A DNA stretch of 43,825 bases. It comes from a virus. The notes below the pieces were generated by a model, which did not search any database, had not been told where the DNA came from, and worked only from the letters and a program-made list of their open reading frames with translations. Position 1 is the stretch's first letter. Each line of letters opens with the position of its first letter. This document shows, one piece after another, positions 2,165 to 20,849 of this stretch. The position numbers and the translations under genes are program-made. The stretch lies in IMG/VR virus record IMGVR_UViG_3300021963_000233, positions 1 to 43,825 of that record; one strand, given 5' to 3'.

Positions 2165-4099
2165 ATGACAGTTTCACTACCAACCGCCTACCAACAAGTT
2201 ATCCATAAGACACGTTATGCAAGATGGATAGAAGAAGAAAACCGTAGAGAGGACTGGCATGAAACTGTTAGAAGATTTGTAAACTATATAGTCGAAACTC
2301 TTGATAAACATAATGATTATCAAGTATCAGATGAAGTAAAAGAAAGAATAGAGCAAGCAATACTTCATACTAACGTAATGCCTTCTATGCGTGGTCTTAT
2401 GACCGCTGGACCAGCATTAGAAAGAGATAGCACATGTTTATATAATTGCTCCTATCTCCCTGTTGACTCACTTCGCTCGTTTGATGAAGCAATGTACATC
2501 CTTATGTGTGGGACTGGTGTTGGGTATTCAGTAGAATCAAAATACATTAATCAACTCCCTGTCATCAATGAACACTTTGAGAATTCATCAACATCCATTG
2601 TTGTAGATGATTCTAAGGCTGGGTGGGCTAAAGCCCTAAGAGAACTTATCGCTCTTCTTTATCAGGGACAGGTTCCATCATGGGATGTTTCTAATGTTCG
2701 TCCCGCAGGCGCAAGACTTAAAACTTTTGGTGGAAGAGCATCAGGGCCAGAACCTTTAGAACGTCTTTTTAAATTTACCGTTGAAACAGTTAAAAGTGCT
2801 GCTGGAAGAAAACTTACTCCATTAGAGGCTCATGACATTATGTGTAAGATTGCAGAAGTTGTAGTTGTCGGTGGTGTTCGACGCTCTGCGATGATCTCCC
2901 TCTCGGATCTTGAAGACCGTAATATGGCATCATCTAAGTCTGGCTCATGGTGGGAATATAACGGACAACGCGCTCTTGCTAATAACTCTGCCGTATATGA
3001 ATCAAAGCCAAGCATGGAAGTATTCATGGCTGAATGGAAATCATTGTATGACTCTAAGAGTGGAGAAAGAGGTATTTTTTCTAGAGATGCCGCCCGTAAA
3101 GTAGCAGCAGTAAATGGTCGCAGAGATGCAACAGCAGAATTTGGCACGAACCCATGCAGCGAAATTATCCTTAGACCGTTTGAGTTTTGTAATCTTACAG
3201 AAATTGTTGTGAGAGAGAATGACACACTAGAAGACCTTTTAGAAAAAGTTGAGGTAGCAACTATTCTTGGAACATTTCAGTCTACATTCACAAGATTTAA
3301 ATATCTACGCAAACAATGGCAAAAAAATTGTGAAGAGGAAAGATTGCTTGGAGTATCATTAACTGGTCAACTTGGGCATAAAATTCTTAATGGTAGTAAA
3401 GGAGAGGCGAAACTTATTGACTGGCTTAATGCCATGAGAGAGAAGGCTGTTGAAGTAAATGCAGAGTGGGCAAAGACACTAGACATTAATCCTGCCGCTG
3501 CTATTACCTGTGTAAAGCCTTCTGGAACGGTATCTCAGTTGGTCGGCTGCTCATCAGGAATGCATCCTTGGCACAATGAATTCTACGCCCGTACTATCCG
3601 TGGAGACAATAAAGACCCCATTACCACTATGCTAAAAGATTTTGGAATTATCTCTGAGCCAGATGTAATGAAACCTTCAGAGACAACAGTGTTTACATTT
3701 CCTATTAAGGCTCCAAAAGGTTCTCTTACAAGAAAAGATCTTACTGCTATACAGCATCTAGAACTTTGGCTAATGTATCAAAGACACTGGTCTGAACATA
3801 AACCATCGATTACTATTTCTGTAAAAGAAAATGAATGGATGGCGGTTGGTGCCTGGGTCTATGATCATATGGATGAGTTATCGGGGGTATCATTCTTACC
3901 ATACTCAGACCATACTTATCAGCAGGCCCCCTACCAGGATATAACCGATGTAGAGTATAATGAATTATTAGAAAAAACTCCGAATAATATTGACTGGGCA
4001 TGGCTAAGTTACTATGAATCATCAGATGGTACTACTGGGAGCCAGGACTTAGCCTGTGCCGCAGGGTACTGTGAAACGGTAGATATTAATTCGGCATAG
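2165..4099 (+). CDS. nrdJ: Class II (adenosylcobalamin-dependent) ribonucleotide reductase
   Basis: A 644-residue single-chain reductase that makes deoxyribonucleotides using vitamin B12 as the radical source. The active site is visible. Cys331 and Glu333 in NPCSEI match the thiyl-radical cysteine and glutamate of the family. Cys91 (STCLYNC) and Cys342 (EFCNLTEI) match the reducible disulfide pair. The C-terminal CAAGYC (Cys631, Cys636) matches the swinging redox tail. The mid-protein stretch VGGVRRSAMISLSDLED and CVKPSGTVSQLVGCSSGMHPW are typical of the monomeric Lactobacillus-type RTPR. It is shorter than that enzyme (about 740 residues), as in other phage versions. The start has AGGAG 5 nt upstream. 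Its place among tail genes is odd for a metabolic gene. Class is sure; ribonucleoside tri- versus diphosphate preference is not. Confidence 0.93.
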   Translation: MTVSLPTAYQQVIHKTRYARWIEEENRREDWHETVRRFVNYIVETLDKHNDYQVSDEVKERIEQAILHTNVMPSMRGLMTAGPALERDSTCLYNCSYLPVDSLRSFDEAMYILMCGTGVGYSVESKYINQLPVINEHFENSSTSIVVDDSKAGWAKALRELIALLYQGQVPSWDVSNVRPAGARLKTFGGRASGPEPLERLFKFTVETVKSAAGRKLTPLEAHDIMCKIAEVVVVGGVRRSAMISLSDLEDRNMASSKSGSWWEYNGQRALANNSAVYESKPSMEVFMAEWKSLYDSKSGERGIFSRDAARKVAAVNGRRDATAEFGTNPCSEIILRPFEFCNLTEIVVRENDTLEDLLEKVEVATILGTFQSTFTRFKYLRKQWQKNCEEERLLGVSLTGQLGHKILNGSKGEAKLIDWLNAMREKAVEVNAEWAKTLDINPAAAITCVKPSGTVSQLVGCSSGMHPWHNEFYARTIRGDNKDPITTMLKDFGIISEPDVMKPSETTVFTFPIKAPKGSLTRKDLTAIQHLELWLMYQRHWSEHKPSITISVKENEWMAVGAWVYDHMDELSGVSFLPYSDHTYQQAPYQDITDVEYNELLEKTPNNIDWAWLSYYESSDGTTGSQDLACAAGYCETVDINSA

Positions 4100-14036: not shown

Positions 14037-14456
14037 ATGCCATTAAGTAGGGATCAATTTGATGCAAATTCTATATATAGAATTGTTAATCAAGCCTATA
14101 CAACATCAAATGGTGTAAAAACATCTATTCAAAGACAACTTGACACTACTACATCCAATGCTCAAACCGGAACATCATATACTTTAGTATTATCAGATGC
14201 TGGTAGAACAATAGAAATGAATAGTGCTTCTGCAAACACTATTACGGTTCCACTTAACTCATCTGTTGCATTCCCTACTGGTAGTAGAGTTGATATTATT
14301 CAAACTGGCTCTGGTCAGACTACCATTCAATCAGTACCTGGAGTAACACTAAATAGTTTTGACTCAACAACAAAATTGTCTGGTCAATGGGCGGCAGCAT
14401 CATTAATAAAAAGAGCAGAAAATACCTGGGTACTTATTGGTAATGTCACAACATGA
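14037..14456 (+). CDS. Short beta-helical tail fibre protein
   Basis: A 139-residue protein with LSRDQFDANSIYRIVNQAY at its start and then TGTSYTLVLSDAGRTIEMNSASANTITVP, FPTGSRVDIIQTGSGQTTIQ and WAAASLIKRAENTWVLIGNV. This pattern (T-x-Y-T-L-x2-D-x-G-[RK]-x-[IV] ... G-x2-[IV]-x2-x-Q-x-G-x-GQ) is widespread in phage fibre tips and head decoration proteins. AGGAGG lies 5 nt before the ATG, and the stop overlaps the next ATG (ATGA). Likely a virion protein. Confidence 0.65.
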   Translation: MPLSRDQFDANSIYRIVNQAYTTSNGVKTSIQRQLDTTTSNAQTGTSYTLVLSDAGRTIEMNSASANTITVPLNSSVAFPTGSRVDIIQTGSGQTTIQSVPGVTLNSFDSTTKLSGQWAAASLIKRAENTWVLIGNVTT

Positions 14457-15520
14457 ACATTATAACGGGAATAATTGCATCTTCTAGAAACGTTTTCGCA
14501 TCTATTATAGATTTATTTAATAGGGCAGATAATTCAACCAATTTAGGAACTCTATCTGGGCAAAAATGGAGAGTTTGGCGAGGAGTTTGGGGAATTGTAA
14601 GCAATAGGGCTTCTTCTTCCACCGCCGACTCATCTTATCCATTAGCCACTCTTACGTTTACAAGACAAGATGTTACTGTGGGAATAGGTGGTCCAAACCC
14701 AGGAACGGGGGCGGCATTCTGGGTAACAGATGCTAATAATTGGTATTCAACTGTATATGTGCAACAAGAAGTATGTCAAACTTGCACAAACTGCAATTCT
14801 TGGAATGCGTCTAATTGCAATTCACTTGGAGGAGGAAATTGTATTGGATGGACTTGTAATGGTGGCTGGAATGCGTCTACTTGCAATGCATTTAGTGGAG
14901 GAACTTGTCAAACTACAAGCGGCGGAAACTGTGCTACTGTTAATGGGTCAAATTGTAATGGTTTTAGCCCAGGACCCTGCGTTCAATGGAACAATACAGC
15001 ACCAAAAGGATTTTGCTCTGGAAGAGGGTTCCCAGTATGTAGTGGTGGATGGAATACCTCTAACTGTGCGTCTTGGAATGGAATTAACTGCATAGCCTGG
15101 AATGCAACAGTATGTAGTGGTAATTGGAATGCGTCTGTTTGCAATGCATCAAGTTGTACTGGTGGATTCAACCCAGTAGTTTGTGTAGGAACTTTTAACC
15201 CATCAAATTGTAACTCATTCTTTAGTTTTTCATGTAACTGTGTAACAGAAAATAGAATCAATATTGTTTCATCTATAACTTCAACCATTACCACGTTAGT
15301 TTCCACACTTTGGTCTGGAACAATTGGATCTTTTAAAGCAATTCTATCTGGAAATAGCGTAACTATACGGGCGTACACTTCTACAAACTATACATCGCAA
15401 ATAGGTTCAGATAGCGTACAAAATATATCTTCTCCGCAAAAATCAAAATTATTTGGTATAATTAAGGCTCCAAGTTCCTTTGGACAGGGGAATTCAATTG
15501 ATGAGTTTAGGGTTGAATAA
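14453..15520 (+). CDS. Concanavalin/LamG-like tail protein with a Cys-Trp-Asn repeat insertion
   Basis: A 355-residue protein. Its two ends form one recognisable lectin-like sandwich: LFNRADNSTNLGTLSG-x-KWRVWRGVWGI and FWVTDANNWYSTVYVQQ before the insertion, and IGSFKAILSGNSVTIRAYTS ... KLFGIIKAPSS ... IDEFRV after it. Between them, residues 108-263 carry 22 cysteines, mostly spaced by 7 or 8 residues, with an aromatic residue and asparagine midway (C-N-x-W-N-A-S-x-C). At least eight N-x-[ST] triplets lie in it. The insertion could be a disulfide-laddered or metal-binding surface loop used for receptor binding. No catalytic motif is seen. It is translationally coupled at both ends (ATGA and TAATG). 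Confidence 0.7.
   Translation: MNIITGIIASSRNVFASIIDLFNRADNSTNLGTLSGQKWRVWRGVWGIVSNRASSSTADSSYPLATLTFTRQDVTVGIGGPNPGTGAAFWVTDANNWYSTVYVQQEVCQTCTNCNSWNASNCNSLGGGNCIGWTCNGGWNASTCNAFSGGTCQTTSGGNCATVNGSNCNGFSPGPCVQWNNTAPKGFCSGRGFPVCSGGWNTSNCASWNGINCIAWNATVCSGNWNASVCNASSCTGGFNPVVCVGTFNPSNCNSFFSFSCNCVTENRINIVSSITSTITTLVSTLWSGTIGSFKAILSGNSVTIRAYTSTNYTSQIGSDSVQNISSPQKSKLFGIIKAPSSFGQGNSIDEFRVE
14774..15241 (+). repeat. Degenerate Cys/Trp/Asn repeat array inside the lectin-like gene
   Basis: This in-frame array encodes 22 cysteines over 156 residues. At DNA level the 12-mer TGGAATGCGTCT appears at 14801-14812, 14867-14878 and 15125-15136, each followed two bases later by TTGCAAT. The repeats are degenerate rather than exact, which suggests old duplications followed by divergence. 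Confidence 0.8.
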
Positions 15521-15855
15521 TGAAAAATAATAAAAATAAAAAAAGAGATACCTATAGATCTTATGTTTTTAAAAAAACATTTAATAAATTAAATTTATTT
15601 AAAAAAAATACTAAGGTCAAAAGTGATATAAATAATCTTCCTAGGTCTCCATACGGGGCGGCTCAGGATGCCCCCATGCACATAGCATTTATAGTAGATG
15701 GTATTGTAGAAGATATAATTCATTGCGATGAAAGATTTGGATATCTACTTATCAGTTCTCCAATAATAGTACAGTTAGATACATTTGATACTGCTAAAAT
15801 AAATGATTCATACAACGAGTCATCAAATACATTTACTAGACCGTTTGAGGTATAA
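15520..15855 (+). CDS. Small protein, Lys/Asn-rich N-terminus plus a conserved small domain
   Basis: A 111-residue protein of unknown function. Residues 1-45 are basic and Asn/Lys-rich. Residues 54-95 (HIAFIVDGIVEDIIHCDERFGYLLISSPIIVQL) align by eye with the gene at 16088: both have AF-I-[VI]-DG-x-V, a central DER and a [LI]-[IL]-SSP-x-I strand, so the two are paralogues. Short proteins with such an AFxxDGxVV start occur in T4-like phages without known function (from memory). The ATG overlaps the upstream stop. An internal ATG at 15676 would give just the conserved domain and cannot be excluded. Confidence 0.6.
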   Translation: MKNNKNKKRDTYRSYVFKKTFNKLNLFKKNTKVKSDINNLPRSPYGAAQDAPMHIAFIVDGIVEDIIHCDERFGYLLISSPIIVQLDTFDTAKINDSYNESSNTFTRPFEV

Positions 15856-15861: not shown

Positions 15862-16086
15862 ATGCATGAAGAAAGAAATGCAAGACCCTGGGACCTTTTT
15901 AATAAAAAAATAGGAAGAGTTTCTTATATAAAAGCAAAAGAAAGATATGATATATGTAAAGATTGCCCATTTTTTTTAAGTTTAACAAGACAATGTAAAA
16001 AGTGTGGTTGTTTTATGCCAGAAAAAGTAAAATTATCAAATGCATTCTGCCCAGAGCATAAATGGGAAAAGGAAAAAGGAGGTTGA
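15862..16086 (+). CDS. Small zinc-ribbon protein (DUF6171-like)
   Basis: A 74-residue protein with ARPWDLFNKKIGRVS at the start and then ERYDICKDCPFFLSLTRQCKKCGCFMPEKVKLSNAFCPEHKW. Six cysteines in the order C-x2-C, C-x2-C-x-C, C, plus a histidine, form a likely zinc ribbon. The same layout is common in small proteins of T4-like marine phages and is covered by a domain of unknown function. It lies directly before its neighbour with one base between, in the accessory cassette behind the fibre genes. Function is not known; an assembly or protein-binding role is only a guess. Confidence 0.75.
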   Translation: MHEERNARPWDLFNKKIGRVSYIKAKERYDICKDCPFFLSLTRQCKKCGCFMPEKVKLSNAFCPEHKWEKEKGG

Positions 16087-16087
16087 C

Positions 16088-16306
16088 ATGGAAGATAGAG
16101 CGCTCGCATTTATTATTGACGGAGAAGTTGTTTCCGTTATGAGGTTTGACGAAAGAACAGCATCAATTATTTTAAGCAGCCCAACTATTATTGACATTAG
16201 CCCAGTAGCCATCAATCAGGGATGGAATTACGATCCTGAAAAGGGCTTTTATACAACAATAGATGGTTCAGAAGTAATTGCAACTCCAGGCGATATTGAA
16301 ATCTAG
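16088..16306 (+). CDS. Small conserved protein, paralogue of the 111-residue protein at 15520
   Basis: A 72-residue protein. The start at 16088 is preferred over an upstream in-frame ATG because AAGGAGG stands 6 nt before it and because it begins exactly at the conserved domain (RALAFIIDGEVVSVMRFDERTASIILSSPTIIDI). This matches the C-terminal domain of the protein at 15520. The rest (GWNYDPEKGFYTTIDG) is not recognised. No catalytic residues are apparent; a small beta-sheet structural or regulatory protein is likely. Confidence 0.65.
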   Translation: MEDRALAFIIDGEVVSVMRFDERTASIILSSPTIIDISPVAINQGWNYDPEKGFYTTIDGSEVIATPGDIEI

Positions 16307-16320
16307 TAGAAAGAATTTAA

Positions 16321-17073
16321 ATGAAAAGAATAAGGTTCATACCACAAAATCAATATGTGTTAAATAACCTTAATCCACCAAGACCAACCAGACAATATCT
16401 CCCAAAGTGGTACAAAGATGGAGAGTCTGCTATTTTTAGCGATACGTTAAAAAAAGCCAACCTAAACGACGCAAATATACATGGTGGGATGAAGTCTTGT
16501 ATACCATTTTTTGATGCAATGGCTTCTGGCTACATTATGGAAACTTGGGAGTCTATAGAAGTTTATGAAAATTATGAAAATATTCTTAAATGGAGATATG
16601 TAGAAAAAAATCCATATACCGATGAGTGGGAAGAAAAAACTCATGTTCAACTAAACATGATAGAAGAAAGACACGGAGATAGCGGGTCTACAATACCAAG
16701 ACCACAAGGACATTCTAGCAATCATATGATTTTTCAAGGAAGGTGGGGAGTGAGACTTCCAAGAGGATGGAGTTTATTAATCACCCATCCATTTAATAGA
16801 TGGGACCTGCCTTTCACAACTACCTCGGGAATAATTGATTCTGATGAGTGGTGGACTAGTGGAAATATTCCATTCTTTTTTAAGGAGGGGTGGACGGGAA
16901 TAATTCCAGCAGGAACTCCTATATGTCAGTTAATGCCAATAAAAAGAAGTTCGTGGGTGGCTCATATTAGTGTTTTAAGCACTCCAAGAAATAATTATCT
17001 TTCTGAAAAAGTCGGAGGTAAAAGTATTGGTTGGTATAAAAAGAATATCTGGGTAAAGAAACAGTATGACTAA
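16321..17073 (+). CDS. Conserved phage protein, DUF6065-like family, copy 1
   Basis: A 250-residue protein, first of three paralogues in the cassette. Shared landmarks are a start with IRFIP, a P-x-W-[YF]-K segment, K-x-C-[IV]-P-[FV]-x-D-x-[FM]-x-[ST]-GY, then GVRLPRGWSLLITHPFNR-x-DLPF, GIIDSD at 170-175, a PFF strand and AGTPICQLMPIKR near 197-208. The order P-x-G, G-[IV]-[IV]-D-[ST]-D, I-x2-GTP-x2-Q resembles the beta-barrel core of dUTPase/dCTP deaminase, but the nucleotide-binding motif GRSS and the C-terminal Gly-rich arm are not seen. Function is unknown. It overlaps the next gene by 8 bases. Confidence 0.65.
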   Translation: MKRIRFIPQNQYVLNNLNPPRPTRQYLPKWYKDGESAIFSDTLKKANLNDANIHGGMKSCIPFFDAMASGYIMETWESIEVYENYENILKWRYVEKNPYTDEWEEKTHVQLNMIEERHGDSGSTIPRPQGHSSNHMIFQGRWGVRLPRGWSLLITHPFNRWDLPFTTTSGIIDSDEWWTSGNIPFFFKEGWTGIIPAGTPICQLMPIKRSSWVAHISVLSTPRNNYLSEKVGGKSIGWYKKNIWVKKQYD

Positions 17074-18058
17074 AATTTTTGTCTCTGTTCCATCTGTTCA
17101 AGATACAGAATACTATAAGACACTTAAAGATATTTTTGAAAATTCAGATAATCCGCAAAACATATTTGTTGGTTCTGCTCATTCAATTCCATTTAAAAAT
17201 TCTAGAATAATACAAGAAACCAAAAATCTAACTAATAAATATTCTAAAAATGTTAGGTTAAAGTTTTTAAATAAATATAGAGCAGAAGGTGTCGGGTTCG
17301 GCAGGCTTGAATCAATGAGCATGTATGACGGCGAAGACTATGTTTTACAAATAGACTCTCATACTCTTCTTACTAAATCATGGGACAGCAAACTTTTACA
17401 AAGTTATGAAGAAGCAAAATCTTTTTCTAAATCTAAAAAAACAATTATGTCTTGTTATCTTCCAGGATATCTATATGTTTCCGAATCACAAAGACAGTTT
17501 AATGAAAATAAAAATCCTATGTATGCATGTTATTTAACGGAAGAAGATAAAAAGGCTGGCGTAGATAAAGATAAAGTTGAAATATGGGACAGCATATATT
17601 CATTAATTCCTAGGTGGACAACTCCAATAAATTTAGATTTTTATGATTTCATTAATAGCCGCTACACATTTGCTAGAAAATTAAATGCTAATTTTATATT
17701 TTCAGATCGTCAATTTGCTGAAGATTATAAGTATATTATTCCATGGAATTTTCTTTTTTTTGAAGAAGAATTTATAATGTCTGTAGAAGCACACTCTCTC
17801 GGGTACTCTTTTGTTCATCCTAATTTTAACTTTTTCCTTGGCCATATATATTCAAATCAATATAATGAGTTCTATTCAAGGAGTAGCGCCGTTGACCCGT
17901 CATGTGATAGAATTAACGAAGCAAAAAGACTAATAAATGAATACTTTGAAACTGAAAATAATAAAATAAAACTAAAAAAATATTGCGAATATGCTGGACT
18001 TTCTTATCCAGAAATGCATTCAGTTTCTTTAAAATACCTACCAAAAGGACATATATGA
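17066..18058 (+). CDS. GT60-type glycosyltransferase (Skp1 hydroxyproline GlcNAc-transferase-like)
   Basis: A 330-residue GT-A fold transferase. The N-terminus IFVSVPSVQDTEYYKTLKDIFENSDNPQNIFVG is the opening strand-helix unit of the PF11397 family. Residues 84-110 (SMYDGEDYVLQIDSHTLLTKSWDSKL) carry the characteristic DSH (97-99), the metal-binding D-x-H that replaces D-x-D in this family. Near residue 230, FLFFEEEFIMSVEAHSLGYSFVHPN matches the family's second conserved block, and FLGHIYS follows. Dictyostelium Gnt1 of this family adds GlcNAc to hydroxyproline of Skp1. A prolyl-hydroxylase-like gene lies two genes downstream. The sugar donor and acceptor in this phage are not known. The start overlaps the upstream gene by 8 bases. 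Confidence 0.8.
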   Translation: MTKIFVSVPSVQDTEYYKTLKDIFENSDNPQNIFVGSAHSIPFKNSRIIQETKNLTNKYSKNVRLKFLNKYRAEGVGFGRLESMSMYDGEDYVLQIDSHTLLTKSWDSKLLQSYEEAKSFSKSKKTIMSCYLPGYLYVSESQRQFNENKNPMYACYLTEEDKKAGVDKDKVEIWDSIYSLIPRWTTPINLDFYDFINSRYTFARKLNANFIFSDRQFAEDYKYIIPWNFLFFEEEFIMSVEAHSLGYSFVHPNFNFFLGHIYSNQYNEFYSRSSAVDPSCDRINEAKRLINEYFETENNKIKLKKYCEYAGLSYPEMHSVSLKYLPKGHI

Positions 18059-18798
18059 AAGAAATAGAGTTTATCCCAGTAGAATCCACAGGGACCAATA
18101 GCGTGGAGGTTATTCCAGCGATTAAAAGAATACCCCCCTGGTTTAAAAAGATTGAGTCTTTAAGAAAATTTTATAAAAATATACCTAATCAAAAAGAAGA
18201 TTTTACAATTAAAAAATGCATCCCCGTCCTTGATGCTTTCACTACAGGATATTATTTAACAACCAAGTACGATATGGAATGGACGATAAATCAAGAAGGT
18301 CAACATGTTTGCTCCTGTGATGCAAAATTAGTTGAAGGGGGAGGCAAGCCAGTAACTATGCACCCATTTGAGCAAATCAGAGATATTGAACTAGGTAGTA
18401 TATATAATGAATACGCCTATAAATTTACAAATCCATTTGTAATAAAGACTCCCCCTGGCTATAGTTGTATATTTACACATCCATTTAATCAAATATCTCC
18501 TTTCTACACATTAACTGGAGTTGTTGATACTGATATGCACCCTCTTGCAGTACAATTTCCATTTTTAATGGTAAAGGGATTCGAAGGAAAAATTTCGGCT
18601 GGGACCCCCATAGTACAGATAATTCCATTTAAAAGAGAGGACTGGAAAATGTATAATGTACGCCCTAGCAAACAAGATAGAAGAGACAATGAACGGGCAC
18701 AAGATGAATTTTATATGAGCAGGTATAATTTAGAAAGTGGAGCGCCTACAGGCGGAGAATACAAAAAGAAGTATAGAAAACCAAAGAAATATTTGTAG
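18055..18798 (+). CDS. Conserved phage protein, DUF6065-like family, copy 2
   Basis: A 247-residue paralogue of the proteins at 16321 and 19400. The start at 18055 overlaps the transferase stop as ATGA and has AAAAGGA just upstream; a longer in-frame start would lie deep inside the transferase gene. Landmarks: IEFIPVEST, IPPWFKKI, KKCIPVLDAFTTGYY, IKTPPGYSCIFTHPFNQ, GVVDTD at 155-160, and SAGTPIVQIIPFKRE near 182-196. The C-terminus is lysine- and arginine-rich (YKKKYRKPKKYL). As in the other copies, the core motif order suggests a dUTPase-like beta barrel without the catalytic set. Function unknown. Confidence 0.65.
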   Translation: MKEIEFIPVESTGTNSVEVIPAIKRIPPWFKKIESLRKFYKNIPNQKEDFTIKKCIPVLDAFTTGYYLTTKYDMEWTINQEGQHVCSCDAKLVEGGGKPVTMHPFEQIRDIELGSIYNEYAYKFTNPFVIKTPPGYSCIFTHPFNQISPFYTLTGVVDTDMHPLAVQFPFLMVKGFEGKISAGTPIVQIIPFKREDWKMYNVRPSKQDRRDNERAQDEFYMSRYNLESGAPTGGEYKKKYRKPKKYL

Positions 18799-18805
18799 GA
18801 GAACA

Positions 18806-19396
18806 ATGTATACAGAATTAGCACAGGCTATTTTTCAATATGAGTTTCCAGAAGATATTGCTAAACAAACAATAAAGCAATTAAATAAAACCTCCGAGTC
18901 TGATTGGCAACAATCCTTAATTGGTAATAATGAGTTAAAATCATACATTAGGTCAAGTTCTGGACTGGCTCTAGATGTCTTTATGCCCGATCTTTCCCAG
19001 AAAGTAAGACAAAATTTTTATTCATGTGTAAAGCACTACACAAACTATTTTGATATTATTGTTACACAAGATGAGGGCCTAAATGTTTTAAAGTATGAGA
19101 ACTCAGACTCATACGATTTCCATGTAGATGGCTCTTGGGATATGTATAGAACAGTGTCCGCTTTGATTTATTTGAATCCATCTCAGTATGAAGGTGGAGA
19201 AACATACTTTAAACATTTTGATATTTCAGTAAAGCCGGAAAATCCATCAATAGTATTGTTCCCATCAGATTACGCATATTTACATGCTGCAATGCCAGTA
19301 ACAAAGGGTAAAAAATATGTAATTGTTTCTTGGATGAATGACAAGCCAAAAAATTTAATGCAGCAACCACCTAACGCATGTGCTTGTTCTAGGTGA
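18806..19396 (+). CDS. 2-oxoglutarate/Fe(II) dioxygenase, prolyl 4-hydroxylase-like
   Basis: A 196-residue dioxygenase. The start at 18806 is chosen over an earlier in-frame ATG because AGGAG lies 4 nt before it and because it starts just after the previous stop. Iron ligands are His106 and Asp108 (FHVDGSW) and His160 (YLHAAMPV). Lys170, ten residues on in TKGKKYVIVSW, is in the place of the residue that binds the 2-oxoglutarate carboxylate (often arginine or lysine). LIYLNP...YEGGETYF is the usual strand between them. The family hydroxylates proline in proteins, and other members act on nucleic acids or small molecules. Its place beside a GT60-type transferase favours protein-proline hydroxylation, by inference only. 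Confidence 0.82.
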   Translation: MYTELAQAIFQYEFPEDIAKQTIKQLNKTSESDWQQSLIGNNELKSYIRSSSGLALDVFMPDLSQKVRQNFYSCVKHYTNYFDIIVTQDEGLNVLKYENSDSYDFHVDGSWDMYRTVSALIYLNPSQYEGGETYFKHFDISVKPENPSIVLFPSDYAYLHAAMPVTKGKKYVIVSWMNDKPKNLMQQPPNACACSR

Positions 19397-19399
19397 AAA

Positions 19400-20134
19400 A
19401 TGTTTAAAAGAAAACAACTTTCAAATACAATAAAATGGATTCCTTATTCTATACATTCATGGCAAAAAGTAAGATTTCCACAACCATCTAAATCATATAT
19501 ACCTCAATGGTATAAAGATATTCCTTTGTGGGAAGGAAATAAAAAAAATGTAAAAATTTTTAAAGATGGATCATGGGAGTCTAATGCTACATTAAAAAAG
19601 TGTGTTCCTTTTATGGATACATTTTTAACTGGATATATACAAGAACTTTGGTGTGACGTTATATTTTATGAAAATGATGATGGATCTATTGGCTATGAAC
19701 ATAATGGAAAAATAGACCCTATCTCAAAAAGAGAATCAAAACTTCTCCCAAATAATGGAATGTGGCATAATGAAGAATTTGTTTGGAAAACTCAATGGGA
19801 GCCTAAAACTCCAGAAGGATATAGTAGTTTATATATTCATCCATTAAATAGAATAGATCTTCCATTTTATACATTAAGCGGAATTATTGATACTGATGAT
19901 TGGCCTATAGCCGGGAACTATCCGTTTCTACTTAACAAAAATTTCCTTGGTGAGATAAAAAGAGGAACGCCCATGTATCAAATTATACCTATAAAAAGAG
20001 AAACTTGGGTTTCAGAAGAAGTTGAGTTTAATAAAAATATTGAAAAAGAAATAAATGAAAAGGTGTCAACAGTAAAGTCACATATTGTTGATGGATATAG
20101 AAATGAATTTTGGAAAAAGAAAAACTATGGATAA
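19400..20134 (+). CDS. Conserved phage protein, DUF6065-like family, copy 3
   Basis: A 244-residue third paralogue. Landmarks: IKWIPYS, SKSYIPQWYKDIP, KKCVPFMDTFLTGY, KTPEGYSSLYIHPLNRIDLPFYTLSGIIDTD (GIIDTD at 161-166), NYPFLL, and RGTPMYQIIPIKRETW near 188-203. It is closest by eye to copy 1 in the HPxNR-x-DLPF block. The gene starts 3 nt after the dioxygenase stop, with AGGTG 4 nt before the ATG, and overlaps the methyltransferase by 8 bases. It has only one cysteine in the conserved KKC-[IV]-P motif plus one elsewhere. Function unknown. Confidence 0.65.
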   Translation: MFKRKQLSNTIKWIPYSIHSWQKVRFPQPSKSYIPQWYKDIPLWEGNKKNVKIFKDGSWESNATLKKCVPFMDTFLTGYIQELWCDVIFYENDDGSIGYEHNGKIDPISKRESKLLPNNGMWHNEEFVWKTQWEPKTPEGYSSLYIHPLNRIDLPFYTLSGIIDTDDWPIAGNYPFLLNKNFLGEIKRGTPMYQIIPIKRETWVSEEVEFNKNIEKEINEKVSTVKSHIVDGYRNEFWKKKNYG

Positions 20135-20849
20135 AATAATATTTTTAAATGAGGATGCGGCTAATCTAAGTCTTCCAGATGAGTCTGTAGACTTAATTTT
20201 AACTGGCCCACCGTACTTTGGGGTCGATCCATTTAGGTATGGTGGAGACCATACAAAGCAAATTAACTATGTAGAGAATGAAAAACAATATGTAGAAAAG
20301 TTAATTGAGGCTACTAAAGAGTTTAAAAGAATTTTAAAGAAAAATGGTAGCCTTATAATTAACTTAAACTTTCCAATAACATACAGGTATTATGTGGAAG
20401 TTGTCGATAATGAAATTCTTAAATATGGATCGACATTTTTATGGGACTATTCCGATGAAGAGAAATTGCCAAATACGGAAAAATTTTTTCAAACCCATCA
20501 AACTTGGTTACATTTCTATAAAGGTGATACATTCCATGAGAACCCGTTTGGTGTAAAAAAACATAGTGGATCAGTTTTAAGAGTAAAGTTCAATAATGCA
20601 CATACAGAAAAAGAACAGGAACTAGGGAAGCACGGATTCATCCTGGATGCGTATTCTATAGATATAGCAGAACATTTTATTAAAACCTATAGCGCACCAA
20701 AATCCGTTGTCATGGACCCGTTTGGAGGGTCAGGAGTCGCTGCTGTTACAGCCTACATGAATGATAGGATTGGAATAACAAATGATATCTCCCCTGAGTC
20801 CGTTGAATTAGCCAAGAAAAGATTTGAGATCTACACTAAAAGTGACTAA
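20127..20849 (+). CDS. DNA methyltransferase, N6-adenine/N4-cytosine type
   Basis: A 240-residue amino-methyltransferase of the N6_N4_Mtase family with beta-class order. Catalytic motif IV comes first (TGPPYFG, residues 26-32) and the AdoMet-binding motif I comes last (DPFGGSG, 197-203, followed by a helix and an acidic GITNDIS). The start at 20127 is taken because it begins right before the DKIIFLNEDA strand and overlaps the upstream gene by 8 bases. The catalytic tetrapeptide is GPPY rather than the usual SPPY or DPPY, so base specificity is hard to call. No restriction partner is visible, so a solitary protective or regulatory methylase is likely. Confidence 0.85.
   Translation: MDKIIFLNEDAANLSLPDESVDLILTGPPYFGVDPFRYGGDHTKQINYVENEKQYVEKLIEATKEFKRILKKNGSLIINLNFPITYRYYVEVVDNEILKYGSTFLWDYSDEEKLPNTEKFFQTHQTWLHFYKGDTFHENPFGVKKHSGSVLRVKFNNAHTEKEQELGKHGFILDAYSIDIAEHFIKTYSAPKSVVMDPFGGSGVAAVTAYMNDRIGITNDISPESVELAKKRFEIYTKSD

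Follow-up and report, generated by a model that had tools for sequence, protein, structure and literature searches.

The Skp1 pathway of Dictyostelium and Toxoplasma, in which PhyA acts before Gnt1, joins an oxygenase of the prolyl 4-hydroxylase (P4H) type to a glycosyltransferase of family GT60. In Dictyostelium and Trypanosoma cruzi, the family to which the Skp1 hydroxyproline enzyme belongs (PMC6939170) also initiates mucin-type glycosylation of Ser/Thr, and it has been described as related to the polypeptide N-acetylgalactosamine (GalNAc) transferases (PMC8724618, PMC3188802). For mycobacteriophages, virion glycosylation by phage-encoded transferases has been proposed (PMC11256854). Here, we describe a gene cassette in the IMG/VR virus record IMGVR_UViG_3300021963_000233, analyzed over its whole 43,825 bases (hereafter, the window) and possibly a fragment of a virus, that combines a GT60 homologue, a P4H-like 2-oxoglutarate (2OG)-Fe(II) oxygenase and three copies of DUF6065. 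Our most solid result is that a cassette marked by DUF6065 and containing GT60, 2OG oxygenases or both sits behind variable fiber genes and recurs in many aquatic phages. With moderate confidence, we propose that it modifies fiber or adhesin proteins post-translationally.

The locus shares with the Skp1 pathway a P4H-type oxygenase together with a GT60 transferase; however, hydroxyproline is here only a possible product, most phage GT60 genes come without an oxygenase, DUF6065 is an additional component, and the likely substrate is a phage fiber protein rather than Skp1. With the mucin-type polypeptide α-N-acetylglucosamine (GlcNAc) transferases of T. cruzi and Dictyostelium it has in common the CAZy and Pfam family and a GT27-related fold, but the enzyme is phage-encoded and part of a fiber cassette with DUF6065. 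Mimivirus L230 and related enzymes unite a viral 2OG lysyl hydroxylase and glycosyl transfer onto collagen-like proteins in one fused protein—differing from the phage cassette in belonging to a eukaryotic giant virus, in being lysyl instead of prolyl enzymes and in using another glycosyltransferase family. Finally, the mycobacteriophage case is similar in that a phage transferase is proposed to modify virion proteins, and its abstract names no P4H, GT60 or DUF6065 (PMC11256854).

The GT60 transferase and the P4H-like oxygenase

The open reading frame at 17066-18058 matched PF11397 with E=1.3e-29 and 104.2 bits (cut-off 21), which bears out the GT60 assignment made in an earlier sequence-only reading of this DNA. 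The D97-x-H99 motif and a distal H260 are invariant across 20 diverse viral relatives, and H260 would be a metal ligand by analogy with GT27. An AlphaFold model of the protein (m1488e5654f14), with a predicted local distance difference test (pLDDT) score of 86.9 and a predicted template modeling (pTM) score of 0.90, had polypeptide GalNAc-transferases as its top PDB matches, including ppGalNAc-T10 (2d7i; Z 19.6, root-mean-square deviation 3.6, 268 residues)—as expected, because GT60 has been described as related to these enzymes (PMC8724618, PMC3188802). No GT60 structure was found in a sequence search of the PDB. A tblastn search of the INPHARED phages gave no match for the window protein and, for a more typical GT60 member, only Xanthomonas phage XacN1; a literature search found no paper tying GT60 to phages.

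The oxygenase likewise proved to be P4H-like, as had been claimed: it matched PF13640 (E=1.6e-13, 51.8 bits; cut-off 27), the PDB chains that resemble it most belong to bacterial prolyl 4-hydroxylases (E=4.5e-11), and the H-x-D...H...K pattern is intact, with H106, D108 and H160 invariant and K170 nearly so among relatives. Scores against the NCBIfam PKHD profiles were well under the cut-offs. Proline is a possible target residue of the oxygenase. A GTG start at 18737 was rejected in favor of the ATG at 18806, which we take as the true start because it aligns with the start of a relative and is preceded by AGGAG. Outside the known catalytic core, a C-terminal Cys-x-Cys tail is kept, as CACSR in the window and as CACGR, CTCGR or CSCG in relatives. 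An additional short oxygenase-like family, matching phrog_2954 (labeled ferrochelatase) and lacking any Pfam match, was seen inside cassettes at L276:8576-9112, L268:8521-9042 and L271:8464-9018.

DUF6065, a third component

The sequence-only reading missed the three DUF6065 copies, one of which lies between the GT60 and P4H-like genes while two flank them. All three match phrog_7084 (E about 1e-36 for copies 1 and 3); copy 2 passes the PF19541 cut-off of 26.6 with 31.5 bits, and copies 1 and 3 fall short of it. Residues K53, G65, Y66, D160, T184 and Y236 are invariant in 79 sequences. For a model of paralogue 2 (m9881d5442094, pLDDT 92.2), the best 50 PDB entries were all dUTPases (Z 9.6-8.5), and a G-[IV]-[IV]-D-x-D segment, compared by eye in the sequence alignment, resembles dUTPase motif 3. 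By its predicted structure DUF6065 is a dUTPase-fold protein; we do not file it as a dUTPase, because the fold matches whereas no copy hit any family among the dUTPase sequence profiles at E<=1. A literature search found no paper naming DUF6065. Among viruses of haloarchaea, Hafunaviridae likewise carry the family, next to adhesin and tail-fiber genes. In Halophage HF1 (L258) and HJTV-1 (L260), homologues lie beside ribonucleotide reductase and adhesin/tail-fiber genes, with DUF6065 directly adjoining the reductase in HF1.

The dUTPase fold, the reductase neighbor in HF1 and the N6/N4 methyltransferase that closes the cluster would all fit DNA hypermodification, with the oxygenase, sugar transferase, DUF6065 and methyltransferase acting on nucleotides or bases. 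We consider this highly improbable, given that the oxygenase is of the P4H type and has no Tet/JBP match in Pfam at E<=1, that GT60 matches polypeptide transferases, and that the cassette lies among fiber genes with DUF6065 in up to three copies.

Recurrence of the cassette in viral genomes

IMG/VR neighborhoods were scanned from three separate roots (GT60, P4H and DUF6065). The GT60-rooted scan returned 531 relatives, from which 79 new loci were read and clustered at 60% identity. DUF6065 is the regular partner of GT60 in IMG/VR, being present in 56/79 of these loci and no more than 3 kb away in 22/28 clusters; P4H was found in 4/79 loci and within 8 kb in 5/28 clusters. In the P4H-rooted loci, DUF6065 occurred in 56/79 and GT60 in 22/79, all 22 with DUF6065. 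The 34 DUF6065-rooted clusters contained both enzymes in six cases, GT60 only in six, P4H only in one and neither in 21 (Fisher p=0.004, which is only indicative, since similarity to the window determined the ranking of each set and the loci in a set are related). Given DUF6065, pairing of GT60 with P4H is thus more than chance.

Writing D for DUF6065, G for GT60 and P for P4H-like genes, viruses with both enzymes show at least four arrangements: D-G-D-P (in the window, L001, L018 and L019), P-P-oxygenase-G-D-D-D-G (L046, L060, L063, L086 and L276), G-P-D (L039) and P-P...D...D-G (L148 and L164). The co-occurrence on which the sequence-only reading depends is therefore real, in phages and also in unrelated bacteria (see below). 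Close relatives L015, L016 and L017 have D-D-P without GT60, and P4H/DUF6065 arrays devoid of GT60 are found in L004-L009 and L013. In L004, L005, L006 and L013, up to seven P4H-like genes alternate with DUF6065 genes. PF13640 is absent from 31/37 whole GT60 phage records (which may be fragments, and where a host enzyme could substitute) and from 28/31 other DUF6065 records, which may also be fragments; L028 carries both GT60 and DUF6065 and was counted in both sets.

This separate assortment in near relatives, together with the arrays without GT60, could mean that the enzymes act independently, GT60 on Ser/Thr in mucin-type fashion and the oxygenase on another residue or protein, with only a fiber-modification island shared. 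The Ser/Thr chemistry established for GT60 in Dictyostelium and T. cruzi (PMC8724618, PMC3188802) and a fold closest to Ser/Thr polypeptide GalNAc-transferases agree with such a division of labor, whereas the conditional association in phages and the direct pairing in bacteria suggest more than a common location. We regard independent action as plausible, if somewhat short of an even chance.

Fiber context and candidate substrates

A family of fiber-like proteins represented at 14453-15520 lies near DUF6065 in 54/80 DUF6065 loci (within 5 kb in 50/80), and either of two unrelated repeat-insert fiber families is found within 5 kb in 53/80. Among P4H-rooted loci, a fiber family lies within 5 kb in 46/56 with DUF6065 versus 0/23 without it. 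The position behind fiber genes pointed out in the sequence-only reading thus extends well beyond the window. Both family names are our own: neither Pfam nor PHROG gave a match for the first, and for the second the Collagen and tail-fiber matches are weak. In the first family, repeat inserts differ wholly between phages while both ends are conserved (L025, L030, L042 and L051), which suggests rapid diversification of the inserts; the repeats seen include WNxSNC, NPYNPC, GGNCNTSGGNC and a Cys-free YTSGST.

Because the cassette adjoins two unrelated repeat-insert fiber/adhesin families, modification of fiber proteins is the reading we favor. GT60 would attach an alpha-linked N-acetylhexosamine (HexNAc), most likely GlcNAc with host UDP-GlcNAc as the donor, to side-chain hydroxyls in a peptide region of a phage protein. 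The P4H-like oxygenase, where present, would hydroxylate side chains in such regions, adding another level of modification and perhaps providing GT60 with some of its acceptor sites, with the dUTPase-fold DUF6065 as a putative partner of both enzymes. Probable substrates are the neighboring fiber/adhesin proteins with hypervariable repeat inserts. Several points weigh against this proposal: 37/79 GT60-rooted loci have no recognized fiber family within 5 kb; the term adhesin derives from position and repeat character, because Pfam and PHROG support is almost nil; the sugar, the substrate, any sequence in which the enzymes act and the part played by DUF6065 are our inferences; and DUF6065, with its dUTPase fold and its reductase neighbor in HF1, could perform an independent, nucleotide-related job.

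A stricter version follows the sequence-only reading: a proline of a phage protein would first be converted to 4-hydroxyproline by the oxygenase and then receive GlcNAc from GT60, the order in which PhyA and Gnt1 modify Skp1. Membership of the Skp1 hydroxyproline enzyme in GT60 (PMC6939170) and the phage association given DUF6065 speak for it, as does one clade with both enzymes whose adjacent adhesin carries (Gly-Ser-Pro)n with proline at the Y position. In Gly-X-Y runs, proline stood 67 times at Y and 13 times at X in P4H-bearing loci, versus 24 at Y and 580 at X in P4H-lacking loci; however, the Y-proline runs come mostly from one clade, and in an unbiased pattern scan, in which many flanks were short, P4H was nearby for 4/105 Y-proline and 8/129 X-proline repeats among the matches listed. 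Y-position proline was accordingly dropped as a general P4H signal. Collagen-like runs of at least five triplets are absent from the window, and the proline density of upstream fiber proteins showed a weak difference, with a median of 9 per 60 amino acids with P4H and 7 without (p=0.06). Since PF13640 is absent from most GT60 records and L015-L017 keep P4H without GT60, an obligate two-step pathway is not the rule in the family. It is possible in this phage, where the bacterial pairings described next strengthen it, although overall we hold the strict sequence of steps to be doubtful.

Bacterial GT60 loci

In bacteria, where few of the genomes sampled carry GT60 (about 1-3%), a 2OG oxygenase lies within 200 bp of GT60 in 21/52 GTDB loci (6/22 clusters), the two genes being divergent in SAR86-type genomes and convergent in Halieaceae. 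Three SAR86-type genomes, all with a 2OG oxygenase as a neighbor of GT60, have one PF13640 gene each; in L187, one of the three, the coordinates of the PF13640 gene are those of the GT60 neighbor. No Pfam family matched the Halieaceae oxygenases, which were recognized by our own profile and, by eye, by the H-x-D...H pattern. DUF6065 was found in none of the 52 loci. In Pseudoalteromonas rubra (L196:8943-11747), a single protein directly behind GT60 fuses GT2, a PqqD-type peptide-recognition domain and a 2OG oxygenase, suggesting a possible modified-peptide pathway. Additionally, a 1516-residue Saprospiraceae protein with O-FucT, GT60 and GT2 (L198:1259-5809) lies next to a double 2OG oxygenase.

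Gene layout of the window

The cassette belongs to a same-strand cluster 3' of the tail genes that runs from a fiber-like gene through small genes to a methyltransferase (Table 1), with the small genes and the repeat-insert fiber-like protein immediately 5' of the interleaved DUF6065-GT60-DUF6065-P4H-DUF6065 order. The GT60 gene overlaps its upstream neighbor by 8 bases and its downstream neighbor by 4 (ATGA). The overlapping operon of the sequence-only reading is thereby confirmed; GT60 and P4H themselves are separated by a DUF6065 gene. A promoter and terminator scan gave no more signals than shuffled sequences. The same methyltransferase family lies near DUF6065 in 21/80 DUF6065 loci, and a relative of the DUF6171-like protein (L001:6784-7020) matched PF19668 with E=3.5e-4, below the cut-off. 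A ribonucleotide reductase gene was also noted at 2165-4099, among structural genes.

Table 1. Genes of the cassette and its immediate surroundings in the window.
Feature	Coordinates	Strand	Basis or remark
Fiber/adhesin-like protein, Cys-rich repeat insert (CNSWNASNCNS...) between conserved N- and C-terminal parts	14453..15520	+	Candidate substrate (putative role)
Small conserved cassette protein, IAFIVDGIVEDIIHCDERFG family	15520..15855	+	Neighbor cluster 1, 55 loci
DUF6171-like small Cys-rich protein (CxxC...CxxCGC)	15862..16086	+	Translation; neighbor cluster 3, 38 loci
Second small VIDGEV-type protein	16040..16306	+	Likeness to neighbor cluster 1, by eye
DUF6065 paralogue 1	16321..17073	+	phrog_7084 E=1.9e-36; PF19541 below cut-off
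GT60 (PF11397) polypeptide HexNAc-transferase homologue, 330 amino acids	17066..18058	+	Profile match and model
DUF6065 paralogue 2, predicted dUTPase fold	18055..18798	+	PF19541 E=1.6e-7, above cut-off; model
P4H-like 2OG-Fe(II) oxygenase (PF13640), C-terminal CxC tail	18806..19396	+	Profile, PDB matches, conserved residues
DUF6065 paralogue 3	19400..20134	+	phrog_7084 E=5.2e-37; no Pfam match
N6/N4 DNA methyltransferase, cluster end	20121..20849	+	PF01555 E=2.3e-18; start chosen by us

Implications

If fiber modification is the function of the cassette, phages would possess a dedicated protein-modification cassette for receptor-binding parts, and DUF6065 would gain its first context. A more far-reaching idea, which we put forward tentatively and think less probable than fiber modification as such, is that bacteria and phages have a peptide hydroxylation-plus-GlcNAc system paralleling the Skp1 pathway, used by phages, with dUTPase-fold DUF6065 in the role of a dedicated partner, to decorate the hypervariable repeats of receptor-binding fibers. 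The existence of hydroxyproline O-glycosylation outside eukaryotes would become testable if the cassette indeed modifies fibers, and the bacterial GT60/2OG-oxygenase pairs offer tractable systems in which to address that question.

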